DNA from: Hansschlegelia zhihuaiae
GTDB taxonomy: Bacteria; Pseudomonadota; Alphaproteobacteria; Rhizobiales; Methylopilaceae
Direction: 5' to 3'
DNA length: 53,261 nucleotides
Assembly: GCF_004103825.1 (NCBI RefSeq)
Contig: NZ_RYFI01000002.1
Location: 273,515 to 326,775, forward strand
Shown here in pieces: positions 15,063-31,726 of this stretch. Within the stretch, counting starts at the first letter, position 1, and each line of letters begins with the position of its first letter. A program made the position numbers and the translations under genes. The notes under the pieces were generated by a model. It was not told the DNA's origin. It did no database searches and was given only the letters and a program-made list of their open reading frames with translations.

Positions 15063-15082
15063 GGCGCAGGGAAGGGCGTTCG

Positions 15083-16687
15083 ATGCGGTGGCGCGGGGTC
15101 CTTGCGGGCCTGATCGCGGTGGTCGCGGCGTGCTCGCCCGCGGCCGCGCTCGATCGCGCGAGCGTCGCCGCCCGGGCCTGCGGCGGCGCGTCCGGTATGA
15201 CCGACGCGGCGAATGCGATGGTCGCCAGCCTCCCCGACGCCTCCGTCGAGGACGCCCGATGGGTCGCGACGTTCTCGAACGCCGCGATCGAGCGGACCCT
15301 GCGATGCGGCGCGGGCGCGCCCACCATCGCCGCGCCGGAGGGCGCACGCGACGCGGCGAGCCTCCGGCCGGGCGCGCCGGCGGACGGCTCGCCGCCGCTG
15401 CTGAGCCTGAAGAACCGCCCGCTGTTCGAGACCGTCCGCGCCGCCGCCACCCTGCTTGCAGGCCCGACCGCCGCCGAACGCGCCGGCGCTCTCACGGCGC
15501 TGGAGCGGCGCGCCGGCTCGCTGCCGCCCGAGCTTTTCGAGCGCGCGGCGGAGGCCGAGACCGACCCTGCGCTGAAGGAGCGTGTTCTGGGCGTCGGCCA
15601 GGCCGCGCTTCTCAACTCGCCAGACATGGCCAAACGCCTCGCCGCGATCCAGCGTATCGCGGCGACGCCCGACCGCCGCGCGCTCACTCAGATCGCCGCG
15701 CTGAAAGGCGATCCCGCCTATGGCGAGGACCCGGCCTTCAGGGCCGCGGTCGATGCGGCCGTAGGTTCGATCGAGCGGTGGCTCGCCGTCTCGAACGCGC
15801 TCAACGTATTCTACAATGGCCTGTCCTTCGCCTCGATCCTGTTCATGGCCTCGGCGGGGCTTGCGATCATCTTCGGGCTGATGGGGGTGATCAACCTCGC
15901 CCAAGGCGAGTTCATCATGATCGGCGCCTATGTCGCCTACGCCGTGCAGGAGGCGATGCGGGCGGCCGCGCCCGGCCTGCTCGACTGGTACCTGATCGCG
16001 GCGATCCCCGTCGTGTTCCTGGTCACGGCCGGCGTCGGGATCGCCGTCGAGGCGACCATCGTGCGCCGGCTCTACACCCGGCCACTGATGACGCTGCTCG
16101 CGACCTGGGCGGTGAGCCTGCTCATCGTGAACCTCGTGCGCGTCGCGATCGGAACGCAGAACCTCCAATTCGTGACGCCGTCCTACATCTCCGGCGGGCG
16201 GCTGGTGACGGGCGATTTCATCGTCACCTGGAACCGGCTGTTCGCGATCGTCTTCGCGGCCGTCACCCTTGCGCTGACCTGGTTCGTGCTGAAGAAGACG
16301 CCGCTCGGGCTGAACATCCGCGCCGTCACGCAGAACCGCGCCATGGCCGGCTGCGTCGGCATCGCCACCCGCCGCGTCGACATGATGGCTTTCGGGTTCG
16401 GCTCCGGGCTCGCAGGCCTCGCCGGCCTCGCGCTCTGCCCGATCTACAGCGTGAATCCGCAGATGGGGTCGAACTTCATCGTCGACAGCTTCATGGTGGT
16501 CGTGCTCGGCGGCGTCGGCACGCTCGCCGGCACGGTCATCGCCGCGCTCGGGGTCGGCCAGATCAACGTGCTGATCGAGCCGCTCTACGGCGCTGTCGCC
16601 GCCAAGGTGATCGTCCTGCTGATGATCATCGCCTTCCTGCAATGGCGGCCGGAGGGGCTCTACGCGGTGAAAGGCCGGCGCAAATGA
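15083..16687 (+). CDS. urtB: urea/amide ABC transporter permease, extended UrtB type
   Basis: The 534-residue product is an inner-membrane permease of the LivH class. It has a signal peptide (RWRGVLAGLIAVVAACSPAAAL) and an extra periplasmic, Ala-rich region up to about residue 230, as is usual for UrtB. A membrane part of about 300 residues follows, with the LivH hallmark GLMGVINLAQGEFIMIGAY and several helices ending near WRPEGLYAVKGRR. The stop codon overlaps the next start (ATGA), so translation of the two permeases is coupled. Confidence 0.9.
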   Translation: MRWRGVLAGLIAVVAACSPAAALDRASVAARACGGASGMTDAANAMVASLPDASVEDARWVATFSNAAIERTLRCGAGAPTIAAPEGARDAASLRPGAPADGSPPLLSLKNRPLFETVRAAATLLAGPTAAERAGALTALERRAGSLPPELFERAAEAETDPALKERVLGVGQAALLNSPDMAKRLAAIQRIAATPDRRALTQIAALKGDPAYGEDPAFRAAVDAAVGSIERWLAVSNALNVFYNGLSFASILFMASAGLAIIFGLMGVINLAQGEFIMIGAYVAYAVQEAMRAAAPGLLDWYLIAAIPVVFLVTAGVGIAVEATIVRRLYTRPLMTLLATWAVSLLIVNLVRVAIGTQNLQFVTPSYISGGRLVTGDFIVTWNRLFAIVFAAVTLALTWFVLKKTPLGLNIRAVTQNRAMAGCVGIATRRVDMMAFGFGSGLAGLAGLALCPIYSVNPQMGSNFIVDSFMVVVLGGVGTLAGTVIAALGVGQINVLIEPLYGAVAAKVIVLLMIIAFLQWRPEGLYAVKGRRK

Positions 16688-17787
16688 GCGCGGCCAAGCG
16701 CAGCCTGCTCGCCCGGGCGCTCGACGACCGCATCTTCGTCGCGGTGACGTCGGCGGTCGCGACCGTGCTGCTGGCCGCGGCCGCCTGGCCCGGGCTCTCG
16801 GACTACCGCGCCAACATCGTCGGGCAGCTCGCCTGTTTCGCCCTGCTCGCCGTCGCGCTCGACCTGATCTGGGGCTATGCCGGGATCCTGAGCCTCGGCC
16901 ACGGACTGTTCTTCGCGATCGGCGGCTACGTCGCCGGCATGCATCTGCTGGAGCATTCCGTCGCCGTCACCGGGATCACCCCGGACATCGTCCAGTTCAT
17001 GGGATGGAAGGCGCTGCCCGGCTGGTGGGGACCGCTCGAAAGCTTCCCCGTAGCGCTCGCCGCGGCGCTCGGCGTCGCCTTTGTGGTCGCGTTCCTGTTC
17101 GGCTGGGTGTCGTTTCGGTCCCGCGTCGGCGGCGTCTATTTCGCGATCATCACGCAGGCGCTCACCTATGTCGCGATGCTGCTGATGTTCCGCAACGACA
17201 CCGGCTTCGGCGGCAACAACGGCATGACCGGCTTCCAGGCGATCTTCGGAGTTCCGTTCCAATCGCCGGGAGTCGCGCGTGGGCTCGCCGTCGCTTCGCT
17301 CGCCTCGCTCGTCGCGGCGCTGGTCGGATGCCGCCTGCTGACGATCGGCCGGTTCGGCCGCCTGCTGGTCGCGACCCGCGACGACGAGGTCAGGCTCCGC
17401 TCGCTCGGCTACGAGACGCTCCGGCTGAAGCTCGCTGTCTGGTGCGTCTCCGCGGTCCTCGCCGCCGTCGCCGGCCTGCTCTACGCGCCGCAGGTCGGCA
17501 TCATCAATCCGCGCGTCCTCTCCCCCGACCTCTCGATCGAGATCGCGGTCTGGTGCGCGATCGGCGGCCGCGGCCGGCTCGCAGGCGCGGTGATCGGCGC
17601 GGCGCTCGTCAACGCCCTCAAGTTCTCGCTTTCGGCGACGCTGCCGGATCTCTGGCCCTTCGTGCTGGCCGGCCTCGTCATCCTGGTCGCGCTGATCTTC
17701 CCCAACGGCCTGTTGGACATCGGCCGGTGGCGGCCGACCTTGCTGTCCCGAGCCGGCGCCCTCCAGCCGAGGGACGCGACGCCATGA
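16684..17787 (+). CDS. urtC: urea/amide ABC transporter permease, UrtC type
   Basis: The second permease subunit has 367 residues from the ATG at 16684 and belongs to the LivM class. It shows the typical segments DLIWGYAGILSLGHGLFFAIGGY, RVGGVYFAIITQALTY and ARLRSLGY-like EVRLRSLGYET. It has about eight to ten hydrophobic segments. The start overlaps the urtB stop by four bases and its own stop overlaps the ATP-binding subunit in the same way. This arrangement favours balanced synthesis of the complex. Confidence 0.9.
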   Translation: MSAAKRSLLARALDDRIFVAVTSAVATVLLAAAAWPGLSDYRANIVGQLACFALLAVALDLIWGYAGILSLGHGLFFAIGGYVAGMHLLEHSVAVTGITPDIVQFMGWKALPGWWGPLESFPVALAAALGVAFVVAFLFGWVSFRSRVGGVYFAIITQALTYVAMLLMFRNDTGFGGNNGMTGFQAIFGVPFQSPGVARGLAVASLASLVAALVGCRLLTIGRFGRLLVATRDDEVRLRSLGYETLRLKLAVWCVSAVLAAVAGLLYAPQVGIINPRVLSPDLSIEIAVWCAIGGRGRLAGAVIGAALVNALKFSLSATLPDLWPFVLAGLVILVALIFPNGLLDIGRWRPTLLSRAGALQPRDATP

Positions 17788-18494
17788 CGGTCGCCGTGCT
17801 GGTCGAGGGGCTGACCGTCGAGTTTGGCCGCTTCCGCGCGATCGACGACCTCTCGCTCGCGATCGACTATGGCGAGGTCCGCGCCGTCATCGGACCGAAC
17901 GGCGCTGGCAAGACGACGCTGCTCGACGTCATTTCGGGCGTCAGCCGCGCCCGGACCGGCCGCGTCCTGTTCGACGAACGCTTGGAGCTCACCCGGACGA
18001 GCGAGGCGGCGATCGCGCGCGCCGGCGTGCGCCGGAAGTTCCAGAAGCCGAGCGTGTTTGAGGCGCTCACCGTGCGCGACAATGTCGAGATCGGCGCCGG
18101 CGGGGCGCGCGACGCGGCGGCGAGAGACCGGATCGCGGCGACGCTCGAGACTGTCGGGCTCGCGGCCGAGGCCGACCGGCTCGCCGGCGAACTCGCCCAC
18201 GGACAGAAGCAGTGGCTCGAGATCGCCATGGTGGTGGTCTCGGAGCCGAAGGTGCTGATGCTCGACGAGCCCGTGGCGGGCCTCACCGACGAGGAGACCG
18301 AGCGGACCGCGGCGCTCGTCCGCCGGCTCAGGACGCCCGGGCGCGCCATCGTGGTCGTCGAGCACGACATGGATTTCGTCGAGACGATCGCCGACCGCGT
18401 CACCGTCCTCCACGAGGGCCGCACCCTGTTCGAGGGTTCGATGGCGCGCGCCCGCGCCGACGCCCGCGTCGTCGACGTCTATCTCGGGCGGTGA
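17784..18494 (+). CDS. urtD: urea/amide ABC transporter ATP-binding protein, UrtD type
   Basis: The 236-residue ATPase is the LivG-class subunit. It has Walker A GPNGAGKTT (about residues 38-46), signature motif LAHGQKQWLEIA, Walker B VLMLDEPVAG and the switch histidine in VEHDMDFV. The RRKFQKPSVFE segment is characteristic of LivG/UrtD ATPases. The start overlaps the urtC stop, and the LivF-class ATPase follows after four bases. Confidence 0.92.
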   Translation: MTVAVLVEGLTVEFGRFRAIDDLSLAIDYGEVRAVIGPNGAGKTTLLDVISGVSRARTGRVLFDERLELTRTSEAAIARAGVRRKFQKPSVFEALTVRDNVEIGAGGARDAAARDRIAATLETVGLAAEADRLAGELAHGQKQWLEIAMVVVSEPKVLMLDEPVAGLTDEETERTAALVRRLRTPGRAIVVVEHDMDFVETIADRVTVLHEGRTLFEGSMARARADARVVDVYLGR

Positions 18495-18498
18495 CGCG

Positions 18499-19191
18499 AT
18501 GAAGCTCGCCGTCCGCGAACTCGACCAGCACTATGGCGGCGCCCAGGCGCTGCGGAAGGTCTCGTTCGAGGTGGCTCCGGGACAGTGCCTCGCGATCCTC
18601 GGCCGCAACGGCGCCGGCAAGTCGACGCTGTTGAAATGCCTCGCCGGCGCCCTGCCCGCCTCGCGCGGGGCGATCGAGTTCGACGGCGTCGACATGACCG
18701 GCGCGCCGAGCCATCGCCGCTCGCGCGCCGGCTTCGGCTATGTGCCGCAGGGCCGCGAGATCTTCGCCGAGCTCAGCGTGAAGGAGAACCTGATCGCCGC
18801 CGCCCGCCCTCATGGCGCGGCGACCGAGGCGACCTTCGAGGAAGTTTACGGCCTTTTCCCCGTCCTGCGCGAGATGGCGGGACGGCGCGGAGGCGCGCTC
18901 TCCGGCGGCCAGCAGCAGCAGCTCGCGCTCGCCCGGGCGCTCGTCACGAGGCCCGCTCTGCTCGCGCTCGACGAGCCGACGGAAGGCGTCCAGCCCTCGA
19001 TCGTCCAGCTGATCGAGACCGTGCTGGCGGACCTGAAGGGCAGGCTCTCCATCGTACTGGTCGAGCAGTATCTCGATTTCGCGACCGCGGTCGCCGACCG
19101 ATTTCTCGTGCTCTCCCGCGGCCGCGTGGTCGACGAAGGCGGGCGCGCGGAGATGAGCCGGGAGCGGCTCTCGAAATTCATGTCCGTCTGA
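18499..19191 (+). CDS. urtE: urea/amide ABC transporter ATP-binding protein, UrtE type
   Basis: This is the second ATPase, LivF class, with 230 residues. It has Walker A GRNGAGKST, the Q-loop region GYVPQGREIFAEL, signature LSGGQQQQLALARAL and Walker B LLALDEPTEGVQPS. It should pair with the UrtD-type subunit under the two permeases. It follows urtD by four bases, and the formamidase-family gene begins 25 bases downstream behind a strong ribosome-binding site, so all six genes look like one transcript. Confidence 0.92.
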   Translation: MKLAVRELDQHYGGAQALRKVSFEVAPGQCLAILGRNGAGKSTLLKCLAGALPASRGAIEFDGVDMTGAPSHRRSRAGFGYVPQGREIFAELSVKENLIAAARPHGAATEATFEEVYGLFPVLREMAGRRGGALSGGQQQQLALARALVTRPALLALDEPTEGVQPSIVQLIETVLADLKGRLSIVLVEQYLDFATAVADRFLVLSRGRVVDEGGRAEMSRERLSKFMSV

Positions 19192-19216
19192 ACAACAGGG
19201 AAGGGAGGCGCCCGTC

Positions 19217-20155
19217 ATGGCCCGTCACCACACGATCTCGTCCGCGCCGGAGAACATGGTCTGGGGCTATCTCGATTCGGCGCTCGAGCCGGTCGCGCGG
19301 GTCGCCTCGGGCGACACTGTCACTCTCACGTCTTTCCCCGCCGGGGGAAAGGAATACCTGCCGCCCGACCGCTCAAAGGTCCCAGCCGACTACATGGCCG
19401 CGCTCGATGCGCTGACCCAGGGCGGCGGCCCGCACTTCATCACCGGCCCGGTCTATGTCGAGGGCGCGGAGCCCGGCGACACGCTCCAGGTCGACATCCT
19501 CGAGGCGAAGCCCACCATGGACTGGGGCTTCGTCGCGATCCTGCCGCTGCTCGGCGCGCTGCCGGACGAGTTCACCGACTACGAGACCATCCATCCGGCG
19601 ATCGACGCCGCCAAGGGCGTCTGCGCGCTCCCCTGGGGGGTCGAAGTGCCGCTCGACCCGTTCTTCGGCATCATGGGCGTCGCGCCGCCGCCCGCCTGGG
19701 GCCGCTGCGGCTCGCCGGTGCCGCGTGCCTTCGGCGGCAACATGGACAACAAGGAGCTGAAGCCTGGCGTGACGCTCTACCTGCCGGTCTTCAACAAGGG
19801 CGCGCTGTTCTTCGCCGGCGACGGCCATGGCGTGCAGGGCGATGGCGAGGTCTGCATCACGGCGCTCGAAATGGGCATCGAGGGCACGTTCCGCCTCACC
19901 GTCCGCAAGGATGTCGCGATCGACTTCCCCTTCGCGGAGAGCGAGACGCATCTCATGTCGATCGGCCTCGACGAGGACCTGGACGACGCCGCAAAGCAGG
20001 CCATTCGCGAGATGGTGCGCCACGTCTGCCAGCGATCGAACCTCACCCGGAACGAGGCCTACATGCTGTGCTCGCTCGCCGGGAATCTGCGCGTCACCCA
20101 GGTGGTGGACGGCAACAAGGGCGTCCACATGATGCTGCCGAAATCCGCGATCTGA
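19217..20155 (+). CDS. fmdA: formamidase/acetamidase family hydrolase
   Basis: The 312-residue product belongs to the FmdA/AmdA family, which hydrolyses formamide or acetamide to ammonia and the acid. Recognisable segments are SAPENMVWGYLDSALEPVA at the start, the GPVYVEGAEPGDTLQVDIL core, the GIMGVAPP and GGNMDNKEL motifs and the acidic GDGHGVQGDGEVCITALE loop. A good ribosome-binding site (GGGAAGGGAGG) precedes the ATG. As the last gene of the transporter operon it implies import of short amides for nitrogen, as in the fmd cluster of Methylophilus. Formamide versus acetamide cannot be decided from sequence alone. Confidence 0.9.
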   Translation: MARHHTISSAPENMVWGYLDSALEPVARVASGDTVTLTSFPAGGKEYLPPDRSKVPADYMAALDALTQGGGPHFITGPVYVEGAEPGDTLQVDILEAKPTMDWGFVAILPLLGALPDEFTDYETIHPAIDAAKGVCALPWGVEVPLDPFFGIMGVAPPPAWGRCGSPVPRAFGGNMDNKELKPGVTLYLPVFNKGALFFAGDGHGVQGDGEVCITALEMGIEGTFRLTVRKDVAIDFPFAESETHLMSIGLDEDLDDAAKQAIREMVRHVCQRSNLTRNEAYMLCSLAGNLRVTQVVDGNKGVHMMLPKSAI

Positions 20156-20168
20156 GCGGGCCTCGCGA

Positions 20169-21431
20169 TCAGGGCAAAGGCGGCGCGGAGGCGATCAGCG
20201 GGACGACGGCGCAAAAATCCTTCGCGGTCGCGAGCAGCGGCAGGTCGGCTCCGGGACGCCCGACCAACTGCAGGCCGAGCGGCAGTCCGGACGGCGACAG
20301 ACCGACCGGGAGCGAGACCGCCGGAGCGTCGAGCACGGTCCAGGGCGCGCAGAACCTCGCGTCGCCCGTGCTGGCGAGTCCGGCCGGCGCCTCCCCGATC
20401 GCGGGCACGGCGAGAAGCGCGTCATAGCCTTTCATCCGCTCGGAAAACGCCTGGCGGCGATCGCTCTGGACCGCGAGCGCGTCGCGATAGGCCGCCTCCG
20501 AGGTCGCGCGGCCGGCGTCGACGAGGGCGGTCAGGTGGCCGCTCATCATGTCCGGCTTCACCTCCCGAAGCTCGCCGAAGATCTGCGCAGCCTCATAGGC
20601 GATGAGGGTGTCGGCGATCGCCGGGATCCGCTCCAGCATGTCGGACGCCTCGACCGGTTCGATGATCGCGCCGGCATCGGCAAGACTGCGGCGTGTGGCG
20701 TCGAAGAGCGCCGCCTGATCCGGGCTGACGACGTCGTTGGGCGGCGCAAGGGCCGCAAGGCGCAACGGCTCCGAGCCTGCTCTCGCCGAGGGCTTCGCCT
20801 CGGTCAGCAACGCGAAGGCGGTCTCGACGTCCCCCACCGCGCGGGCGAACAGGCCGACATGATCGAGCGCGCCGCACAAGGGATGAACGCCCCCTCGCGG
20901 CAGGGCGCCGAAGCTCGGCTTGAAGCCGACCACGCCGCAGAAGGCCGCCGGCCGTATCACAGAGCCGAGGGTCTGGGTGCCGAGCGCGAGCGTCACGATC
21001 CCCGCCGCCACGGCGGCCGCCGACCCGCTCGACGAGCCGCCCGGCGTGTGGCCGCGGTTCCAGGGGTTGCGGGTCGGTCCGGGATGGCGCCAGGCGAATT
21101 CGGTGGTGACGGTCTTGCCGAGCACGGTCGCGCCGAGCGCCCGCAGCCGCGAGACGATCTCGGCGTCCGCAGTCGGCCGGTGGCCGGCGTGGATCGGCGA
21201 GCCATAGGCGGTCGGCATGTCGGCGGTGTCGATCAGGTCCTTCACGCCGACCGTGACGCCGGCGAGCGGGCCGGAACCGGCCGCCGGCGCGCTCTCCGGC
21301 AGATGCGCGAAGGCGCACAGTTCGGGCTCGAGCGCGCAGGCGCGCTCCCAGAGCGGGGTCACGAGGCCTTGAGGGTCCGCGCCGCCGGCGATCGCGGCCT
21401 GAATCTCGGCGATGGTTCCAGCTTTGGGCAT
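20169..21431 (-). CDS. amidase-signature family hydrolase
   Basis: The 420-residue enzyme has the amidase signature fold with a Ser-cisSer-Lys triad. The lysine is Lys64 in VGVKDLIDTADMPT, the cis-serine lies in GGSSSGSAAA (131-140), and the nucleophile is probably Ser157 in GTQTLGSVIRPA. These enzymes cleave amides to acid plus ammonia. It is not GatA of the tRNA amidotransferase, since no gatB or gatC is near and it is shorter. It follows the branched-chain-type transporter genes by 20 bases and is the last gene of that minus-strand operon, converging on fmdA with only 13 bases between the stop codons. Confidence 0.88.
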   Translation of the reverse strand: MPKAGTIAEIQAAIAGGADPQGLVTPLWERACALEPELCAFAHLPESAPAAGSGPLAGVTVGVKDLIDTADMPTAYGSPIHAGHRPTADAEIVSRLRALGATVLGKTVTTEFAWRHPGPTRNPWNRGHTPGGSSSGSAAAVAAGIVTLALGTQTLGSVIRPAAFCGVVGFKPSFGALPRGGVHPLCGALDHVGLFARAVGDVETAFALLTEAKPSARAGSEPLRLAALAPPNDVVSPDQAALFDATRRSLADAGAIIEPVEASDMLERIPAIADTLIAYEAAQIFGELREVKPDMMSGHLTALVDAGRATSEAAYRDALAVQSDRRQAFSERMKGYDALLAVPAIGEAPAGLASTGDARFCAPWTVLDAPAVSLPVGLSPSGLPLGLQLVGRPGADLPLLATAKDFCAVVPLIASAPPLP

Positions 21432-21451: not shown

Positions 21452-22201
21452 TCAGACGCTGAGGTGGCGGAGCACGCGGTCCCGCGCTTCGGCTTCGGCG
21501 ACGCCCTCGTCGTCGATTTCGCCGAGCTTCAGCACCGCCCAGCGATCGGAGACGCGGAGCGCGAAATCAAGGTTCTGCTCCACGATCAGCATGCTGGCGC
21601 CGCTCGCCGCGCGCTCCTCGGCCAGCGCATTGGCGATGCGGTCCACCACAGAAGGCTGCAGGCCCTCGGAAATCTCGTCGATCAGCAGCAGGCGGGGTTT
21701 CAGCATCAGCGCGCGGGTGAGGATCAGCATCTTCTGCTCGCCGCCCGACAGCGTGCCGGCGCGCTGAGAGAGCCGGTCCTTCAGGAACGGGAAGTGCCCG
21801 AAGGCGCGCTCCAGCGCCTCCGGCAAGAGGCGGTCGCTCGACAGCGCGAGCCGCAGATTGTCCCGAACCGTCAGATCCTGGAACAGCGGCTGCTCCTGCG
21901 GCGCGTAGCCGACGCCGAGCGCGACGAGTTTCGCGGGAGCGAGGCCCGCGGTCGAGGCGCCGTCGATCGATATGGCTCCGCCGCGGAGCGCCACCATGCC
22001 GAGGATTGTCTTCAGCAGCGTGGTCTTGCCCATGCCGTTCTTGCCGAGCAGCGCGACGATCTCGCCGGGCCGCACCCGAAGCGACACGCCCTTGACGATC
22101 GAGACCGCGCCGTAGCCGCTGGCGACCTCATCGAGGGCGAGGTCGCCGCCGGCCGGCGCCTCGGCCCGCCGAGCCGCTTCAGCCATCCGAGCCTCAGCCA
22201 T
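21452..22201 (-). CDS. branched-chain-type ABC transporter ATP-binding protein (LivF class)
   Basis: The 249-residue ATPase shows Walker A GKNGMGKTT, signature LSGGEQKML and a Walker B region LLLIDEISEGLQPS, where the common DEP is DEI, while the catalytic glutamate is kept. The ORGCYAPQEQPLF-like Q-loop (GVGYAPQEQPLF) fits LivF. Its start overlaps the end of the upstream permease-ATPase fusion by eight bases, so the two are translationally coupled. The likely cargo is an amide or nitrile, judging from the flanking nitrilase and amidase. Confidence 0.9.
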   Translation of the reverse strand: MAEARMAEAARRAEAPAGGDLALDEVASGYGAVSIVKGVSLRVRPGEIVALLGKNGMGKTTLLKTILGMVALRGGAISIDGASTAGLAPAKLVALGVGYAPQEQPLFQDLTVRDNLRLALSSDRLLPEALERAFGHFPFLKDRLSQRAGTLSGGEQKMLILTRALMLKPRLLLIDEISEGLQPSVVDRIANALAEERAASGASMLIVEQNLDFALRVSDRWAVLKLGEIDDEGVAEAEARDRVLRHLSV

Positions 22202-24002
22202 GGGCGGCGCCCGAATAGATGGTCCGGACCAGCTCGGAGCCGACCACCTCCTCGACTGTGCCGTCGAGGGCGAGCCGCCCCTGATGCAGCACCACGATGC
22301 GCGACGAGATCTCGCGCACGAAGTCGAGGTCGTGCTCGACCAGCACGGCGGCGACGCCGAGCTCGCCGGTCAGGGCCTTCAGCGCCGCGCCGATCGTGGT
22401 GCGCTCGGCCTTGGTGAGGCCCGCCGTCGGCTCGTCGAGGAGAATGAGCCGCGGCTCGAGCGCGACCACCATGGCGAGCTCGAGAGCCTGCTTCTGGCCG
22501 TGGGAGAGCAGGCGGGCCGGTTCGGCCAGCATGCGGTCGAGCCCGGTCATGCGCAGCACGTTCAGGGCGGCCTGCGGCAGCCCGATCGTCTCGGCGCGGC
22601 CGATCGGGCTCAATCCGTCGTGCGAGGCGCGGGCGAGCAGCAGGCAGTCGGCTACGGTCAGGCTCTCGAACACGCTCGCGACCTGGAATTTGCGGCCGAC
22701 GCCGAGCGCGACGATGCGGTTGGGCGTCAGGCCGGCGGTCGAGACGCCGCCGATCGAGACCGCGCCCTTGAACGGCTCCGTTCCGTCGCTCAGGCAGCGC
22801 ATCAGCGTGGTCTTGCCGGCGCCGTTCGGGCCGACGAGGCTGACGAGCTCGCCGGCCCGGACCTCGAGGTCGATGTTTTCGAGCACGGTCAGGCTGCCAT
22901 AGGACTTGGCGAGGCCCTCGATCGTCAGAAGCGGCGCGCCGGCCCCGTCCGCTGCGGGACGGGAGGACCTCGCGACCAGCCGTGGCGTGAAGCCGGCCGA
23001 TCGCCCGATCGGAAGCGCGCTCCAGACGCGGCGCGCGATCTCCGCGAGGCCGCCGGGCAGCAGAATGATGACGGCGACGAAGGTCGCGCCAAGCAGGAGC
23101 TGCCACAGGAACGGCAGATCGCCCGAGAGGTTCGCGGCGAGATAGTCGATGGCGACCGTGCCGAGGACCGGCCCGAGCAGCGTGCCGCGGCCGCCGAGCG
23201 CGACCCAGATGACGAGTTCGGTGCCGAACAGGAAGCCCGCGTTCTCGGGAGCCACCACGGAGGAGGCGTTGGCGAAGATGAAGCCCGCGAGCCCCGCCAC
23301 GCCCGCAAGCGCCGCGGTGAGCGCGATCTGCAGCCGCTTGGGGCTCAGGCCGAGATAGGCGCAGCGCGCGTCGTTGTCCCTGACCGCGACGAGCGCGCGT
23401 CCCGCGTCGGAACGCACGAAGACCCAGGCGGCGAGCGTCGCCGCCACCAATGCGAAGGCCGAGAGCCGGAAAAAGCCTTCGAGCTCGAGCGGCAGCACCT
23501 CGAAGCCCACGAGGCCGCTGCTCGAGCCGGTCCATTCGCCGCCGGAATAGATCAGCTGCGTGACGACGATCGGCAGGACGAGCGAGATGACCGAGGCGTA
23601 GAGCGCGGTCGAGCGGTGGTAGAAGGAGAGCCATCCGACCGCGAGGCCGAGCGCCGCCGGCGCGACGACGGCGAGTGCGAGCGCCACCGCCATCCATTCC
23701 GGGGTCGCGCCGAGATAGCTCAGCGCCATGGCGGTCGCGTAGGCGCCGACGCCGAAGAACGCCGCTTGCCCGAAGGTGAGGATCCCGGTGAAGCCCCACA
23801 ACAGGTCGACGGTGACGGCGAGAGTCGCATAGATCATCGAGCGGGTCAGGACGTTGACCGCGAAGGCGTCGAGGACGAGCGGCGCCGCCCAGAGAGCCGC
23901 GGCCGCGAGCGCAGCGACGACGAAGGGCGCCGCTCGCGACAGGCGTGGACGCCCACGCTCGGCCGATCCGGAGAGCCCGATCGCGGAAGCGTCCTCAGGC
24001 AC
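22194..24002 (-). CDS. ABC transporter permease fused to ATP-binding domain (LivM-LivG)
   Basis: One 602-residue polypeptide combines a LivM-class permease and a LivG-class ATPase. The permease covers residues 1 to about 325, with DLLWGFTGILTFGQAAFFGVGAY and several helices. The ATPase covers about residue 350 to the end, with Walker A GPNGAGKTT, signature LSHGQKQALEL and Walker B LILLDEPTAGLT. The linker is a basic, Pro/Ala-rich stretch. Such fusions are known in this transporter family but are less common than separate genes, and the plus-strand unit in this same window keeps them separate. It overlaps livH and livF by eight bases each. Confidence 0.92.
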   Translation of the reverse strand: MPEDASAIGLSGSAERGRPRLSRAAPFVVAALAAAALWAAPLVLDAFAVNVLTRSMIYATLAVTVDLLWGFTGILTFGQAAFFGVGAYATAMALSYLGATPEWMAVALALAVVAPAALGLAVGWLSFYHRSTALYASVISLVLPIVVTQLIYSGGEWTGSSSGLVGFEVLPLELEGFFRLSAFALVAATLAAWVFVRSDAGRALVAVRDNDARCAYLGLSPKRLQIALTAALAGVAGLAGFIFANASSVVAPENAGFLFGTELVIWVALGGRGTLLGPVLGTVAIDYLAANLSGDLPFLWQLLLGATFVAVIILLPGGLAEIARRVWSALPIGRSAGFTPRLVARSSRPAADGAGAPLLTIEGLAKSYGSLTVLENIDLEVRAGELVSLVGPNGAGKTTLMRCLSDGTEPFKGAVSIGGVSTAGLTPNRIVALGVGRKFQVASVFESLTVADCLLLARASHDGLSPIGRAETIGLPQAALNVLRMTGLDRMLAEPARLLSHGQKQALELAMVVALEPRLILLDEPTAGLTKAERTTIGAALKALTGELGVAAVLVEHDLDFVREISSRIVVLHQGRLALDGTVEEVVGSELVRTIYSGAAHG

Positions 24003-24828
24003 GGGAGAAGCCTTTCGGGCTGATGCGGAGCGTGACCGCCGCCAACACGGCGATCGCGATGCTGCCGAAAATCGGGCTGACGAAGGCGCTGATCAGCACC
24101 TGCGCCGCGCCGAAGACCAGACAGGCCGCGGCGAGCGCGAGGAAGGACGCGTTCGACACCATCACCAGCATGAAGGCGCCGATCAGCCAGCCGACGCCCA
24201 TATTCGGGTCGACGCTGGCGAGCGGGGTGAGCAGCACGCCCGCAAGCGAAGCGAGGCCGGCGCCGATCATGAAGGTGACGAACCGCACGCGCGCGGTGTC
24301 GATGCCGAGGCCGCGGGCCAGCGCCTCGTTCATGATGACGGCGCGCGCCGAAAGGCCGAGACGCGTCCCTTCGATCGTGAACGCGAACGCCGCCCCGATG
24401 ACGAGCGCGGCCCCGAGCGCCACGAGCCGATACGCCGAGTAGTCGACGCCAAGGAGCTGGACGGCGCCGGGAAGCAGGTTCGGGGTGAACTGGACGTCGC
24501 GGCCGAAGCCGAGTGTGATGAGCTGGCCGATTACGATGCCGAGCCCCCAAGTGGCGAGGATCGCGTCGAGCGGCCGGCGATAGAGCGGCCGGATGATGAA
24601 GAGCTCCGCGAGCCCTCCGAGGGCCGCGCCCACGACGAAGGCGAGCGGCGCCGCCGCCCAGGGATTCAGGCCGAGCTTGGCGGCGACCACGGCGCAATAG
24701 GCGCCGATGGTGATCCAGGCGCCGTGCGCGAAGTTGATGATCTTCAGCACGCCGAAGATCGCGAGCAGGCCGATCGACGTCACGAAGAGGATCGCGGCCG
24801 TGGTCAGCACGTCGAGGATGAGGAGCAT
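23995..24828 (-). CDS. branched-chain-type ABC transporter permease (LivH class)
   Basis: The 277-residue permease has the LivH hallmark IFGVLKIINFAHGAWITIGAY near the N terminus and about eight hydrophobic segments, with the conserved GLGIDTARVRFVTFMIG region in the loop between the two halves. It partners with the LivM-LivG fusion encoded immediately downstream (8-base overlap). The substrate-binding protein gene lies 58 bases upstream. Confidence 0.9.
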   Translation of the reverse strand: MLLILDVLTTAAILFVTSIGLLAIFGVLKIINFAHGAWITIGAYCAVVAAKLGLNPWAAAPLAFVVGAALGGLAELFIIRPLYRRPLDAILATWGLGIVIGQLITLGFGRDVQFTPNLLPGAVQLLGVDYSAYRLVALGAALVIGAAFAFTIEGTRLGLSARAVIMNEALARGLGIDTARVRFVTFMIGAGLASLAGVLLTPLASVDPNMGVGWLIGAFMLVMVSNASFLALAAACLVFGAAQVLISAFVSPIFGSIAIAVLAAVTLRISPKGFSRA

Positions 24829-24886: not shown

Positions 24887-26041
24887 TCACTTTAGCTTCG
24901 GGCACTGCTCGCCGGGGTCGACGTCCTTGAAGGCGCTGATGACCTTCACGGAGCCGTCGCCCTGCACCTGGCCGAGATACATCGTCAGCGGGGCATGGTG
25001 CTGCTTGTTCATGCTGATCGTCCCGCGCGGGCCGATGAAGCTTACCGTCGGCAGCGCCTCGAGCACCTTGGCGGTCTCGGTCCCGCCAGCCTTCTCGACC
25101 GCCGCCTTGTAGAGGTAGATCGCCTCGTATTGCGGCACCGACAGGTCGTTCGGCGTCTTGAGGCCGGCGCCGAACTTTTTCTCCATGGCGGCGAGAAAGG
25201 CCTTGTTCTCCGCACTGTCGACGCCGGTGACGTAGGACGCCGAAAGGTAGATGCCTTCAGCGTCCGCGCCCATGCTCTTGGCCGTGCCCTCGTCGACCGC
25301 GAGATTGGCGTAAGGCAGCGAGACGCCGGCGCCGCGCAGCTGTTTGGTGAGCGTGACGTTCGGGGCGCCGCCGGCCGTCGAGGTGATCAGCGCGTCGGGC
25401 TTGGCCTCCTTCAGCTTGGAGATGATCGCGGTCCAGTCGCTGCCGTCCATCGGCAGGTACTCTTCGCCCACGATCTTGCCCCCGGTCTTTTCGATGTACT
25501 GGCGCGTGAAGGCCAGCATGCCGCGCCCGAAGGCGTAGTCGCTGCCGATCAGGAAATAGGTCTTGGCGCCCTTCTCCTTGGCGAAGGCGTCGACCACCGG
25601 CGGCACCTGCTGCTCCGGCACCCAGGCGTTGACGAACAGATTCTTGTTGCAGGAGCGGCCCTCGTAGAACGAGGTGTAGATGTACGGCGTCCTGCCCTTC
25701 GTGACGGCCGGCAGCCCGGCGTTGCGGGCCGCGCTGGTCTCCATCGAAATCAGCACGTCGACCTTCTTCTGATAGATCAGCGAGTCGAAGGCCTTCTGGG
25801 CGCCGGCCGCGCCGGAAGCGTCGTCCGCGACCTCGAGCTTGAGCTGCCGACCGAGCACGCCGCCCTTCGCATTGATCTCCTCGACCGCAAGTTCGGCCGA
25901 TTGCACCACGGATGGCGCGACGACGCTGTTCGCGCCCGACAGGCCGACCGGAACGCCGATGACGATCGGGTCCTCGGCGCGCGCCGGCGAAACGGCGAGG
26001 ACAAGCGCCGCTGCGGCGCCGATGAGATGACGCTTGGACAT
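24887..26041 (-). CDS. branched-chain-type ABC transporter substrate-binding protein
   Basis: The 384-residue protein has a Sec signal peptide (MSKRHLIGAAAALVLAVSPARA) and a type I periplasmic-binding fold: IVIGVPVGLSGANSVVAPS, INAKGGVLGRQLKLEVADD and TYFLIGSDYAFGRGM. It resembles amide- or urea-binding receptors (AmiC/UrtA-like) as well as LivJ, and the neighbouring nitrilase and amidase suggest a nitrogen-bearing amide as ligand rather than a branched-chain amino acid. It is the second gene of the minus-strand operon. Confidence 0.88.
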   Translation of the reverse strand: MSKRHLIGAAAALVLAVSPARAEDPIVIGVPVGLSGANSVVAPSVVQSAELAVEEINAKGGVLGRQLKLEVADDASGAAGAQKAFDSLIYQKKVDVLISMETSAARNAGLPAVTKGRTPYIYTSFYEGRSCNKNLFVNAWVPEQQVPPVVDAFAKEKGAKTYFLIGSDYAFGRGMLAFTRQYIEKTGGKIVGEEYLPMDGSDWTAIISKLKEAKPDALITSTAGGAPNVTLTKQLRGAGVSLPYANLAVDEGTAKSMGADAEGIYLSASYVTGVDSAENKAFLAAMEKKFGAGLKTPNDLSVPQYEAIYLYKAAVEKAGGTETAKVLEALPTVSFIGPRGTISMNKQHHAPLTMYLGQVQGDGSVKVISAFKDVDPGEQCPKLK

Positions 26042-26090
26042 GGGTGAGTCGGGCTCCTCGGAAATGGCGGTCGGCGGAAAAGGGACGGGG

Positions 26091-26936
26091 TCAGCCGTAG
26101 ACGTCGGTGCGGCGATCGCGCAGGACGTTGTTGAACTCGTTGAGGTCCTTGCGGCCCGCCTCGGCGAGGTCGATAACCGCGGTGACGGTCTCGGGCCGGT
26201 CCTTGCTCGCCGGGCCTGCGAGCGTCCAGCCTTTGGCGTCGATGATCAGGCTCTGGCCCTCGAAGGGCTGGCCGCGCTCCACCCCCACGCGGTCGGCGCA
26301 GGCGATGAAGATCCCGTTCGAATGCGCCGCCGCCCGATGCAGGATGTTGGCCATGGCGGCCTCGCCGGCCGGCTGGTCCGGCATCGGCACCCAGTTGGTC
26401 GGGACGCAGACGATCTCGGCGCCGCCGAGCGCGAGCTGGCGGAACGTCTCCGGAAACCAGCCGTCGTAGCAGATCGCGACGCCGATCTTCCCGAGCGCGG
26501 TCTCGAACACCGGAAAGCCGAGATCGCCCTTCTCGAAGAACACGTTCTCGCGGTGCCAGAGATGCGATTTGCGGTAGACGCCGATGAAGCCCTCCGGTCC
26601 CGCCACGACGGCGGAGTTGAACAGCGCGTCGCCGGCCCGCTCCGCGATCCCCGCCACGATGTGGACGCCGAGTTCGGCCGCGAGCGCCAGCCACGCGCGG
26701 CAGGACGGGCCGTCCGGCACGGGCTCGGCGAGAGAGCGCGCCTCCTCCGTCGTGTCGAACACGTAACCGGTGTTGGCGAGCTCCGGGAGGACGATCAGCC
26801 GGCTGCCGGTAGCCGCTGCGGCGCGGACCAGCTCCGACGCCCGCGCGACATTGGCGTCAACCGCCCCGATCCGGGGCTCGAACTGAATGCAGGAGACCTG
26901 TAACCGCGGGCGAGTGGGAGCAATCTCTTCTATCAT
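26091..26936 (-). CDS. carbon-nitrogen hydrolase (nitrilase superfamily)
   Basis: The 281-residue protein has the nitrilase Glu-Lys-Cys triad: Glu52 in LPELANTGY, Lys123 in GVYRKSHLWHRE and Cys156 in AICYDGWFPE. The family hydrolyses amides, N-carbamoyl compounds or nitriles. The length fits the amidase or N-carbamoyl branches better than true nitrilases of about 330 residues, but the substrate cannot be named. The frame is open to a TTG at 26954; I chose the ATG at 26936, which has GGAA five bases upstream. It is the first gene of the operon with the LIV-type transporter and amidase, and sits behind a structured leader. Confidence 0.88.
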   Translation of the reverse strand: MIEEIAPTRPRLQVSCIQFEPRIGAVDANVARASELVRAAAATGSRLIVLPELANTGYVFDTTEEARSLAEPVPDGPSCRAWLALAAELGVHIVAGIAERAGDALFNSAVVAGPEGFIGVYRKSHLWHRENVFFEKGDLGFPVFETALGKIGVAICYDGWFPETFRQLALGGAEIVCVPTNWVPMPDQPAGEAAMANILHRAAAHSNGIFIACADRVGVERGQPFEGQSLIIDAKGWTLAGPASKDRPETVTAVIDLAEAGRKDLNEFNNVLRDRRTDVYG

Positions 26937-27085
26937 GCTGGTTCCAAAACACAAAAATCCTCTGGACGCGGAAGTTATCCGCAGACCAGAGGCTCCAAAG
27001 CCAAGATGAGACGTAACAATCCTGCTGTCAGGCGATCTTGTCTGAAGCGGTTACGATAGCCCCGAATGCTCAGGCTGCAAGGCGA
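26937..27085 (-). promoter_or_regulatory. structured 5' leader, candidate riboswitch/attenuator of the nitrilase operon
   Basis: Read on the minus strand, this leader has several exact pairings. CGTAAC/GTTACG joins 27050-27055 with 27012-27017. A small hairpin CCTG/CAGG lies inside it (27021-27032). ATCTTG/CAAGAT joins 27035-27040 with 27002-27007 and crosses the first helix, giving a pseudoknot-like or switching topology. GGCT/AGCC (26991-27002) overlaps the upstream arm of the terminal hairpin. No leader-peptide ORF was found. The layout is that of an RNA that chooses between read-through and termination. I recognised no known riboswitch class; guanidine (ykkC) consensus blocks were not seen. 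Confidence 0.5.
26953..26992 (-). terminator. intrinsic terminator just upstream of the nitrilase start codon
   Basis: CCTCTGG/CCAGAGG (26986-26992 with 26959-26965) and an inner GCGGA/TCCGC pair (26968-26972 with 26978-26982) form a GC-rich hairpin. On the minus strand it is followed directly by ATTTTTG. It ends about 17 bases before the ATG at 26936, leaving no room for a separate promoter, so it should act inside the leader as an attenuator. Confidence 0.65.
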
Positions 27086-27166
27086 TAATTAAAGCAAAGG
27101 ATGCTTTGATCGTTGCCTTTCGGCCAACGAGATGTGCAGGCCAAGCCCGCTCATCGCTCGTGGGCG

Positions 27167-27241
27167 GCGACCACGCTTTCGGCGACGCTCGTCATCGGCA
27201 CACGCGCCGCGGCCGCCCGGTCCCTCAGCAAGCCGATCTCC
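27167..27241 (+). other. gap between divergent-facing units; possible decayed HAMP-linker fragment
   Basis: The stretch from 27086 to 27296 contains no convincing gene. One plus-strand frame reads TLSATLVIGTRAAAARSLSKPIS, which resembles the end of a transmembrane helix running into a HAMP domain, as in chemoreceptors. Nothing recognisable lies on either side, so it may be a remnant or a coincidence. Confidence 0.2.
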
Positions 27242-27296
27242 AAGCGCAGCGCCCGCCGCCAGCGTCAGCTGGTTGCTGGTCGGCTCAAGAATAAGC

Positions 27297-27419
27297 CTAT
27301 GAAAAATAAGCGTGTATCAAATATCCAACGCCGAACACTATGACCAACACTATGATCGTGGTGGAGGCCGCCGGCCATGTCTTCTCGTCTCTGGAATTGA
27401 GATCGTTGTCCTCGGTCAT
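27297..27419 (-). CDS. small single-pass membrane protein coupled to an RND pump (40 aa)
   Basis: This 40-residue ORF begins at an ATG that overlaps the RND transporter stop codon (ATGA), a typical sign of translational coupling. The first 17 residues are polar and acidic ([15 protein letters not shown]), then [22 protein letters not shown] forms one membrane helix to the C terminus. The size, topology and genetic linkage recall AcrZ, the small helix that binds AcrB in E. coli, but there is no clear sequence similarity that I can see. The role as a pump accessory is inferred. Confidence 0.65.
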
Positions 27420-30400
27420 CCCGTTCGCCCCTCTGTTGTGGCGTCGGCTGAGACAGCGGGTCCCGGTGCAGCCTGAGGTTTTGGCTTGGTGGACGGCCGC
27501 AGCCTTTCGCGGATCGCCTGGAAGAACACGTAGAGCGGCGGGATGACGAAGATCCCGAACAGCGAGGCGGCGATCATGCCGCCGAACACCGGCGAGCCGA
27601 CGTCGCGCCGGGCGAGCTGTGACGCTCCGTGCGCGATCACCAGCGGAAGCAGGCCGAGGATGAACGCGAAGGACGTCATCATCACCGGCCGGAAGCGGAG
27701 CCGCGCTCCCTCCGTGGCCGCCTCCAGCAACGGGACGCCGCGTTCGCGCTGCTCCTTGGCGAACTCGACGATCAGGATGCCGTTCTTCGCCGCGAGGCCG
27801 ATCAGCACGATCATGCCGATCTGCGCGTAGACGTCGAGGGTCAGCTTGCCGAGCACGAGCGCCGCGAAGGCGCCCAGGATGCCGACGGTAACCGAAAGCA
27901 GGACCGGCACGGGGATCGACCAGCTCTCGTAGAGCGCGACAAGGAACAGGAAGGCGAACAGCACCGCGAAGGCGAGGATGATGGGCGTCTTGCCCTCGGC
28001 CCGTTTCTCCTGGAACGCGGTGTCGGTCCATTCGCCGGCGTAGCCTTGCGGCAGCGAGCGCTTCGCGACCTGCTCCATGGCGGCCAGCGCCTCGCCGGAG
28101 GAGACGCCGGGCGCCGGGCCGCCCTGCAGCGTGACGGCGCGCAAATTGTTGTAGCGGATGAGCGCCGGCGGCCCGACCTCGACCTTGATCTCCAGCAGGC
28201 TCCTCAATGGCACCATCTTGCCTTCGGAGCTGCGGACGTTGATGCGGTAGATGTCGTCGACGGCCGCGCGGTCCGCCGCCTCGGCCTGGAGCTGGACCTG
28301 CCAGGTCCTGCCGAACAGGTTGAAGTCGTTGGCGTAGTAGCCGCCGAGCGCCGCCTGCAGCGCCTGGAACACGTCCTGCAGCTTGACGCCGAGGATCTGC
28401 ACCTTGTCGCGGTCGATCTCGAGATAGATCGAGGGGTTGGTGGCCGAGAAGGTGCTGAAGACGCGCGACAGCTTCGGCTCCTGATTGGCCGCGATGGCGA
28501 GGCCGCGCACCACCTGCGCGAGCGCTTTCGGGTCGCCGCCGCGCAGATCCTCAAGCACGTAGGAGAACCCGCCTCCCGTGCCGAGGCCGATGATCGGGGG
28601 CGGGGCGATCGGCACGACCACGCCGCCATGGATCTGCGCGAACTTGCCCGCTAGGCCGCGCATCACCGCGGCGGCGCCCATCGATGGATCCTTGCGCTCC
28701 TCGAAGGACTTGAGCGTCACGACCATGAAGCCGGAGTTCGACTGGGAATAATTGTCGATGAAATTGAGGCCGACGACCGACGTGTAGTCGGCTATGGCGT
28801 GCTCGGATTTCAAGATCTCCTCGGCCTGCCGAACGACGTCGAGCGTCCGGCCGACCGCGGCGCCGTCCGGCAACTGGACCACGACGAAGAAGGCGCCCTG
28901 GTCGTCCTCCGGCAGGAAGCCGGTCGGCGTCATCCTGGACAGCGCCGCGACGCCGAAGCCGCAGACCGCGACGAGGACGATGCCGAGGATCGAGACGCGG
29001 ACGATCTTGCCCACCACCCAGCCGTAGCCGTCGCGCACATGGTCGATGCTCCGCATCACATAGCCCATGACGCCGCGGCGCGGGCCATGATGCGGCTTGA
29101 GGAGCACGCCGCAGAGCGCCGGCGAGAGCGTCAGCGCGTTGATCGCCGACAGCACCATCGAGACCACGACGGTGACGGCGAACTGGCGGAAGAGCTCGCC
29201 CGCGATGCCCGGGATGAAGGCGACCGGCACGAACACTGACAGGAGCACGAGCGTGATCGCGATGATCGGCGCCGTTATCTCGGCCATCGCGATCTTGGTG
29301 GCTTCCGCGGGCGTGAGCTCCGGGCGCTCCTCCATCACCCGCTCGACGTTCTCCACCACGACGATCGCGTCGTCGACCACGATGCCGATAGCCAGCACCA
29401 CGGCGAGGAGGGAGACGGAGTTGGCCGAATAGCCGATCGCGTTCAGGACGATGAAGGCGCCGATCAGGCTGACGGGCACCGCAAGCGTCGGGATCAGCGT
29501 CGCGCGGAAGCTCCCGAGGAACAGGAAGACCACGATCACGACCAGCACGAAGGCTTCGATCAGCGTCTTCTTGACCTCGTCGATTGTCGCGGTGATGAAG
29601 GCGGTCGGGTCGTAGGTCACTTTCCATTCGAGGTCTTCGGGGAAGCTGGGCGCGAGCTGCTCGATCTGCTTGCGGACAGCGGTAAGCGTCGCGATCGCGT
29701 TCGCGCCCGGCGCCTGATAGAGCGCGATCACCGAGGCCGCCGCGCCGCCGAGCCGCGTGTCCCGATCGAGGTTGCTGGCGCCCAGCTCGACCCTCGCCAC
29801 GTCGCCCAGCCGAAGGATCGAGCCGTCGGGATTCGTGCGCAGCACGATCTTCGAGAACTCTTCGGGCGAGGCGAGGCGCCCCTTGGTCTGGATGCTGAGC
29901 TGGAGCTGCTGGTCGTCGGCGATCGGCCGCCCGCCGATCCGCCCGACCGCCGCCTGCACGTTCTGCGCCTGGATAGCCCCGATGACGTCCCCGGTCGTGA
30001 GATTGAGGCCGGTCAGCTTGTCGAGCTCGACCCAGACCCGCATCGAATAGTCCTGCGGGCCCCAGAGAGTGGCGTCGCCGACGCCCGCAGTGCTCTTGAT
30101 GCGGTCGAGCAGATTGATGGTGACGTAGTTGGACAGGAACAGCGGGTCGTGCGTGCCCTTCGGCGAATACAACGCCACCACGCCGAGCAGCGCCGACGAT
30201 TTCTTCTTGACCGTCACGCCCTGCCGCTGGACATCCGTAGGCAGTTTCGACAGTGCGATCTGGACGCGGTTGTTGACGTTGACCGAATTGATGTCGGGAT
30301 CGGTGCCGAGCTCGAAGGAAACGAGGAGGGTGTAGCTGCCGTCATTGCCGCTCACGCTCTTCATGTAGATCATCTTGTCGACGCCCACGATCTGGGCCTC

Positions 30401-30598
30401 GATCGGCTGCGCCACCGTCGCGTCGACCACGCTTGCGGACGCGCCCGGATAGAGGGTCGTCACCGAGACCTGGGGCGGCACGATGTCGGGATATTGCGCG
30501 ACCGGGATCGCGAGCAGAGACAGGAGCCCGGCGATCGTCGTGACGATCGCGATGACGATGGCGAGGCGCGGTCGATCGACGAAGACCGAGGAAAGCAT
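27416..30598 (-). CDS. RND efflux transporter, hydrophobe/amphiphile type (AcrB/MexB-like)
   Basis: The 1060-residue inner-membrane proton/drug antiporter has the full HAE-1 layout. There is an N-terminal helix ([21 protein letters not shown]), two large periplasmic loops and 12 membrane helices. The proton-relay pair is present in [17 protein letters not shown]. The C terminus is a cytoplasmic Pro/Lys-rich tail. It should form a trimer with the adaptor encoded just upstream (3-base gap) and an outer-membrane channel encoded elsewhere, since none is present here. The family exports drugs, dyes, bile salts or solvents; the substrate is not predictable. Confidence 0.95.
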
Positions 30599-30601
30599 GC
30601 C

Positions 30602-31726
30602 TCACATTCCCTTCGCGGAAGCCCTGGCCGGGCTTGCGCGCACCGGCGCTCCCTGACGGACGGTCTGCAGGCCCTCGACGATGATCTGCTCGCCGCCCGA
30701 CAACCCCTCCTCGACGATCGCGTCGACGCCCGCGTCGCCGCCGAGCTTCACGCGCTTCGTAACGGCCTTGCCGTCCTCGACCGCGAAGACGTAGACGCCG
30801 GCCTGATCGGCGATCAGCGCCGCCTGGGGGACCACCACCTTTTCCTGCGGCTGCCCGGCCTCGAGCGCGACGCGGACGAACTGCCCGTCGGTGAGGGCGC
30901 CGGCCGGGTTCGGGATCCTGGCGCGGACCAGCAGCGTGTCCGTGCCCCGGTCGACGCTGACGTCGACGAAGTCGATCTGACCGAGCTGGTCATAGAGCGA
31001 GTCGTCGGCGAACCGCAGCCGCACCTTGATCGATTTGGGGTCCGGCCGCTTGCCGGCCTGGGCGCTCTTCAGGAACTCCCGCTGGCTGACCGGAAAGACC
31101 ACATACATCGGGTCCTGGCTGACGATCGTGGTCAGGACGCCGCTGTCGGGCCCGACGACGTTGCCCTTCGTCACCGCCGTACGGCCGATCCGTCCGCGGA
31201 TGGGCGACTTGATGTCCGTGTAACCGAGATTGGTCTGCGCCGTCTTGAGGTTCGCCTCGTCCGAGAGGATCGAGCCTTCGGTCTGCTGTTTCTGCGCCCG
31301 CGCCTGATCCCGCGCGACGACCGTTCCCGCGTTCTTGGCGACCAGGTCCTCGGCCCGCTGAAGCTGGATGATCGCGAGCGCGTTCGCCGCCTGGCTGATG
31401 TCGATCGCGCCCTCGGCCTTCTGGACCTCGGCCTGATACTGGGCCTGTTCGATCTTGTAGAGCGGCGCGCCGGGCTCCACGACGTCGCCCTCCTTGAACA
31501 GGACGTCCTCAAGGAAGCCGACGACGCGTGCCCGGACCTCGACCTTCTCGACGCCCTCTATCCGCCCCACGAAGTCGAGCGACTTGCTGATCGGCTTGCG
31601 CTCCGCCGCGACGGTCCCGACCGACGGAGTCGCTGGAGCGCTTGTTTGACCTCGGGCTGATCCGATCCCGCCATTCAGAGCGAGCGCGGCCGTCAAGAGC
31701 CCTGCAAGAGCGTCGATCGCGCGCAT
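30602..31726 (-). CDS. RND efflux periplasmic adaptor (membrane fusion protein)
   Basis: The 374-residue adaptor has a signal peptide (RAIDALAGLLTAALALNGG, then SARG), no lipobox cysteine, and the standard order of beta-barrel, lipoyl halves and alpha-helical hairpin. Recognisable pieces are VGRIEGVEKVEVRARVVGFL, KEGDVVEPGAPLYKIE and YTDIKSPIRGRIGRTAVTKG. It bridges the RND pump to an outer-membrane channel. It is the first gene of the pump operon. No TetR- or MarR-type regulator gene is adjacent. Confidence 0.93.
   Translation of the reverse strand: MRAIDALAGLLTAALALNGGIGSARGQTSAPATPSVGTVAAERKPISKSLDFVGRIEGVEKVEVRARVVGFLEDVLFKEGDVVEPGAPLYKIEQAQYQAEVQKAEGAIDISQAANALAIIQLQRAEDLVAKNAGTVVARDQARAQKQQTEGSILSDEANLKTAQTNLGYTDIKSPIRGRIGRTAVTKGNVVGPDSGVLTTIVSQDPMYVVFPVSQREFLKSAQAGKRPDPKSIKVRLRFADDSLYDQLGQIDFVDVSVDRGTDTLLVRARIPNPAGALTDGQFVRVALEAGQPQEKVVVPQAALIADQAGVYVFAVEDGKAVTKRVKLGGDAGVDAIVEEGLSGGEQIIVEGLQTVRQGAPVRASPARASAKGM

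Follow-up and report, generated by a model that had tools for sequence, protein, structure and literature searches.

The leader of the nitrilase operon in the window (the whole stretch of 53,261 nucleotides of Hansschlegelia zhihuaiae DNA that was analysed) is a real attenuator and not a riboswitch, and is most likely an orphaned, default-off relic of an ANTAR attenuator. From its sequence we hold with good confidence that an AmiR-type ANTAR antitermination leader was the ancestor of the region, which would no longer be inducible by this route. We call it an attenuator because its conserved form in relatives has covarying hairpins and a terminator, and default-off behavior is expected because in the window the regulatory partner and its binding hairpins are damaged while the terminator is intact. 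The leader precedes an operon encoding the following proteins:

26091 to 26936, minus strand: CN-hydrolase ("nitrilase"), first gene of the operon (PF00795, 186 bits)
24887 to 26041, minus strand: ABC substrate-binding protein (PF13458)
23995 to 24828, minus strand: ABC permease (PF02653)
22194 to 24002, minus strand: ABC permease fused to an ATPase (PF02653 and PF00005)
21452 to 22201, minus strand: ABC ATPase (PF00005)
20169 to 21431, minus strand: amidase (PF01425)

None of the operon proteins had an NCBIfam equivalog above cut-off. The dN/dS of the nitrilase is 0.15–0.25 between the window and seven relatives, compared with 0.10–0.28 among the relatives, and the operon seems to be still under selection. 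At 13812-20155, on the plus strand of the window and convergent with the nitrilase operon, lies another ABC transporter cluster of the amide/urea type, whose last gene encodes an FmdA-type formamidase; the region upstream of this cluster showed no comparable leader.

Related loci were collected by a scan of named genomes, from which the best 80 of 426 were retained; these include loci of Methylopila, Hansschlegelia, Methylobacterium, Ancylobacter, Bradyrhizobium and Achromobacter. Upstream of the nitrilase the relatives carry tandem hairpins with mostly six-base loops, preceded by an open frame with an ANTAR-like end. An anchor pattern was found in 67 loci, and alignments were picked by hand from those 67: one of 23 close relatives plus the window (A3) and one of 29 loci with the window excluded (A5). 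Ancylobacter-type and betaproteobacterial leaders (A4) were excluded from the covariation count because their P1 hairpin differs or misaligns. Across the 29 A5 sequences the two tandem hairpins P1 and P2 and the terminator downstream of them all have covarying stems. Standard pairs occupy 98.6% of cells, 7 pairs changed on both sides compared with a shuffled mean of 4.1 (1 of 500 shuffles was as high), and double changes occur in 39 cells compared with 11.6 in shuffles (0 of 500), while pairing falls to 39–52% when the partners are offset by as many as 3 columns. A third hairpin, P3 (GGCUNUGNAGCC), shares bases with the terminator arm. All of its cells (100%) pair in the 29 relatives, but its sequence is almost constant and therefore yields no covariation signal.

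A covariance model (R1) built from the 29 A5 leaders, with the window left out, matched 71 of the 80 loci (best 80 of 426) at E≤0.01. Five congeners score 106.3–113.2 bits with R1 compared with 73.4 bits for the window, whose genome holds no second match at E<1, and congeners without the nitrilase gave two weak matches of 22.7 and 22.0 bits. We considered and rejected a multi-gene regulon: among 199 genomes of the order, 11 had an R1 match (E≤0.001), one each, all 11 beside nitrilase matches (stricter filters). At family level, 6 of 18 genomes (counting that of the window) have a homologue of the nitrilase; at order level the figure is 28 of 297.

The gene order in relatives is amiC-amiR, then the leader, then the CN-hydrolase/ABC/amidase operon, and a Rhizobium leguminosarum plasmid record, compared by its genes only, has the same order with an annotated ANTAR protein. 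The relatives' upstream gene scores 116.1 bits for AmiR_N and 43.8 bits for ANTAR, and its product matches the PDB structure of AmiR (1qo0); their AmiC has a periplasmic-binding fold and matches AmiC structures 1pea and 1qnl, the best match being 8tg1. Because the hairpins covary, and because tblastn with Methylopila capsulata AmiR and AmiC places both genes upstream in 56 of the 80 loci with the leader present in all 56 (27 of them outside the R1 training set; best 80 of 426 loci), the relatives' leader is, by these sequence criteria, an AmiR-type (ANTAR) antitermination leader. A leader is found without AmiC-AmiR in 15 of the same best 80 loci and neither is found in 9; no AmiR occurs anywhere in the fetched flanks of these 24. 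An adjacent AmiR is thus not essential to leader function, as those 15 loci do without one.

By analogy with AmiC/AmiR, NasR and EutV, the terminator in the relatives would form by default. AmiC would sense an amide-like compound and release AmiR, which would bind the tandem loop hairpins while the leader is being transcribed and favor P3; P3 would then block the overlapping terminator, and RNA polymerase would enter the CN-hydrolase/ABC/amidase operon. This antitermination scheme is drawn from portions of PMC3369931, PMC8934654, PMC7496416, PMC8164766 and PMC3795266.

The corresponding region of the window contains the following features:

27116 to 27231, minus strand: amiR remnant, the last ~39 codons of an ANTAR protein in two reading frames (tblastn)
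27053 to 27080, minus strand: promoter-like block TTGCAG-N16-TATCGT, with a block at the same place in relatives
27058 to 27053, minus strand: −10-like box TATCGT, conserved in relatives
27055 to 27050 with 27017 to 27012, minus strand: first crossing helix, CGTAAC/GTTACG, exact 6 bp
27040 to 27035 with 27007 to 27002, minus strand: second crossing helix, CAAGAT/ATCTTG, exact 6 bp
26950 to 27047, minus strand: leader as matched by R1 (73.4 bits, E 7e-17)
27030 to 27043, minus strand: damaged P1 hairpin AGAC-AAGATC-GCCT (relatives GGGC-ARGRTT-GCCC)
27013 to 27028, minus strand: damaged P2 hairpin ACAGC-AGGATT-GTTAC (relatives mostly GCAGC-AGGATT-GCTGC)
26991 to 27002, minus strand: P3 hairpin GGCTTTGGAGCC, its 3′ arm overlapping the 5′ arm of the terminator
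26953 to 26992, minus strand: intrinsic terminator CCTCTGG...CCAGAGG with an inner GCGGA/TCCGC stem (26992 to 26959), then ATTTTT (26958 to 26953); its pairs covary in relatives
26941 to 26945, minus strand: ribosome site, GGAAC here and GGAGC in all 23 close relatives

The terminator that the first-pass annotation had placed close before the start codon is present, with ATTTTT 16 bases from the ATG at 26936, and the further helix it had seen overlapping the terminator arm proved to be P3. The terminator folds beyond chance (45 nt, z −5.3, 0 of 200 shuffles), and a pattern-based terminator scan of 25500-28500 missed it; the fold of the entire 164-nt stretch is no stronger than that of its shuffles (z −0.96, 33 of 200). 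A TTGNNN-N16-TANNNT block stands in the same position in 23 of 23 close relatives and in the window, which is a raw count with no chance control, and TATCGT is exact in 20 of the 23. A sigma-70 promoter scan of 25500-28500 under stricter rules listed none. The promoter-like block predicts a transcript start near 27046.

Decay of the window's copy is evident at the regulator genes and at the hairpins. No amiC lies upstream of the leader, and the amiR remnant is recovered with a relative's AmiR (tblastn, E 4e-11) as residues 188–219, matched at 75% with an in-frame stop, and residues 213–226, matched at 100% in another frame. Genes for an RND efflux pump and a membrane-fusion protein (27419-31726, minus strand) occupy the position that amiC-amiR has in relatives. 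The window's genome, which is 97.5% complete, contains no fuller AmiR orthologue (best matches 28% on contig C4 and 24% on contig C1), and its best AmiC match is 41%, on contig C4; it keeps two other ANTAR genes. Of the 9 pairs of P1 and P2, the window has 3 broken, and all 9 are intact in every one of the 23 close relatives. P1 has an A-C mismatch in its stem, and its isolated fold is 0.0 kcal/mol compared with −7.0 in a relative; P2 has 2 of 5 pairs broken and an isolated fold of −0.8 kcal/mol compared with −8.0 in a relative. Differences from the relatives' majority number 9 in 31 positions of P1-P2 (0–7 in relatives) and 6 in 50 positions of P3-terminator (2–15 in relatives). Set against L055, L054, L052 and L073, the window has a higher density of changes in P1-P2 than in P3-terminator (Fisher p 0.003, 0.013, 0.032 and 0.028, uncorrected), and this excess is unclear against L050 (p 0.067, uncorrected). 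Both intact P1/P2 stems and a cognate AmiC-AmiR pair, which mark a working leader, are missing from the window, and the promoter-like block, P3 and the terminator are all kept. We picture a history in which amiC and most of amiR would have been lost beside the RND-pump operon, P1 and P2 would have become mispaired and the ribosome site weakened, and the promoter, P3 and the terminator would have stayed. The low dN/dS of the nitrilase fits poorly with an operon that is silent for good, unless amiC-amiR disappeared recently or transcription comes from another promoter or from read-through. Any one of four things could account for this low value: a recent loss, read-through, an unseen promoter, or help from another ANTAR protein.

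It is conceivable, though we think it unlikely, that what now preserves the terminator is mainly its use in ending transcripts of the upstream RND-pump operon and that regulation is gone. The RND operon is upstream on the same strand, the terminator is almost unchanged while P1 and P2 have drifted, and no further terminator on the minus strand came out of the scan of 25500-28500, although that scan also missed this one. However, the terminator predates the arrangement, since the same one stands behind amiR in relatives. This reading is in any case compatible with the relic explanation and not opposed to it.

We give a lower probability to a still-working ANTAR attenuator served in trans by the AmiR paralogue of contig C4 or the NasT-like protein of contig C1. 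Such service would make use of the two ANTAR genes in the genome, of P3 and of the one loop (AGGATT) that is retained, and it would agree with the low nitrilase dN/dS and with the 15 of the best 80 loci whose leader has no adjacent AmiR. The broken stems of P1 and P2, which have almost no stability, argue against it, as does the C4 protein, whose identity to the lost AmiR is only 28%; moreover, the A-first loops near the C4 gene are AAGGCT and AAAGCT on 4-bp stems, unlike those of the window.

The first-pass annotation had proposed a riboswitch or attenuator with two exact 6-bp helices in crossing, pseudoknot-like order. Both helices were found on the minus strand together with the terminator, so that part of the observation stands. 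Their crossing order is at chance level: one or more pairs of exact 6-bp helices in crossing order turn up in 488 of 2000 dinucleotide shuffles of 26937-27085. For CAAGAT/ATCTTG, 77.8% of cells across 24 sequences pair, the same as the shuffled mean, and 1 of its 6 pairs is absent in 20 of the 24. Because the CGTAAC arm shares bases with the conserved −10-like box TATCGT, it would lie upstream of the transcript start and is probably outside the transcript, 5′ of its start. Compensatory changes do exist in homologues but are located in helices other than the two named, and the predicted start falls downstream of one of the named helix arms. An Rfam search of the window gave a tRNA elsewhere only, raising E up to 5 added two chance snoRNA matches at 27147-27199 with the leader still without a match, and the leader family was unmatched in a search of 15 relatives' loci. 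An Rfam-family riboswitch was rejected on this absence of a described aptamer in the window and the 15 loci. We also rejected the idea that the decayed leader has acquired a new fold that needs no regulator, as the leader's upstream half is at shuffle level (z −0.49 and −0.27); the whole 97-nt leader has a z of −2.80, which we put down to the terminator. The window does contain a terminator and crossing helices. A pseudoknotted riboswitch that binds a metabolite is nevertheless very improbable, since the helices are unconserved and at chance level with one arm inside the −10 box, the upstream half folds like shuffles, no Rfam riboswitch matches, AmiC-AmiR genes adjoin the leader in relatives, and a protein regulator explains the conserved hairpins there. 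The attenuator half of the earlier interpretation is the one retained.

Among known ANTAR systems, the AmiC-AmiR amidase control of Pseudomonas aeruginosa is similar in that homologous sensor and antiterminator genes adjoin an amide-hydrolysing operon in the relatives, and the amiE leader, likened here by description, has short loop hairpins and a terminator. It differs in that the operon of the relatives comprises a CN-hydrolase, a urea/branched-chain-type ABC transporter and an amidase, and in that their amiC-amiR lies upstream of the leader, with both genes lost from the window. As described in parts of PMC3795266, PMC5424462 and PMC6759348, alphaproteobacterial NasS-NasT leaders likewise have a regulator pair just upstream, leader hairpins with a terminator, and nitrogen genes downstream. 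Unlike the present case, NasS-NasT senses nitrate/nitrite, and the NasT-like gene of the window's genome, so named from its neighbor genes, is on contig C1 and not at the leader.

The dual-hexaloop code of EutV/NasR targets, as given in portions of PMC3369931, requires A1 and G4 in both loops, with eut linkers of 5–12 nt and a harmful effect of 3 nt; a portion of PMC8164766 admits ANTAR linkers of 2–25 nt. Compared with the motif so described, the nitrilase leaders share tandem short stems, mostly hexanucleotide loops with A usually first, a closing C-G pair, a last hairpin that overlaps the terminator, and a P2-P3 spacing of mostly ~10 nt, which is inside the eut range. They differ from it in having three hairpins, in a P1-P2 distance that is only 1 nt for most members of the close group, in a terminator-overlapping P3 loop of U-N-U-G-N-A instead of A1, and in a position 4 that is often A or T in P1/P2. 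Position 1 was A in 67 and position 4 was G in 42 of 96 automated picks (72 loci, some picks being alternative hairpins), so the A1/G4 code does not hold in both loops, and P3 loops mostly start with U. By analogy, we regard the nitrilase leaders as a modest variant that would be ANTAR-like in its working and has true ANTAR regulator genes, not as a strict A1/G4 match. Loop lengths of P2 and P3 tend to agree, with 6/6 in 53, 7/7 in 11 and mixed lengths in 5 of 69 loci. The 7/7 loops are confined to Achromobacter/Bordetella (L093, L095, L097, L098, L100, L102, L106, L109, L116, L121 and L127), and no AmiR was found in the fetched flanks of these loci. The joint change of loop length, possibly one event, hints that the same protein reads P2 and P3.

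We tentatively propose, as an idea somewhat short of an even chance, that the nitrilase leaders form an uncatalogued three-hairpin ANTAR branch with a relaxed loop code, in which P1 would be accessory, P2 would be the loop hairpin and P3 would be set against the terminator, with P2 and P3 read by one protein. The window would then amount to a natural experiment: its regulator disappeared, the hairpins that bind the protein drifted, and the terminator persisted. A literature search found no paper on the nitrilase leader; the supplementary tables of PMC3369931 were outside its scope, so absence from print is not implied. The riboswitch guess is replaced by a testable protein-RNA switch, and a leader model is available that Rfam does not match. 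These leaders suggest that the A1/G4 loop rule in searches for ANTAR targets may overlook whole branches. The window illustrates how an ANTAR switch may decay after loss of its regulator, and raises the question of how a still-conserved operon gets expressed.

A separate locus on contig C4 (L130, 9924-10017, plus strand and facing strand) carries a pair of leader-like stretches that diverge from each other, with T-runs and with hairpins whose hexaloops begin with A (gagcAAGGCTgctc, gagcAAAGCTgctc). One stretch precedes a nitrile hydratase beta gene (PF21006/PF02211), and the other precedes an amiC-like gene that is followed by an ANTAR gene. A leader between this ANTAR gene and the next gene was rejected, as no A-first hexaloop on a stem of at least 4 pairs occurs there; hairpins of that kind are found upstream of the C4 amiC and, on the other strand, of the nitrile hydratase beta gene. 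R1 weakly matches the stretch before the nitrile hydratase beta gene (18.4 bits, E 0.044).
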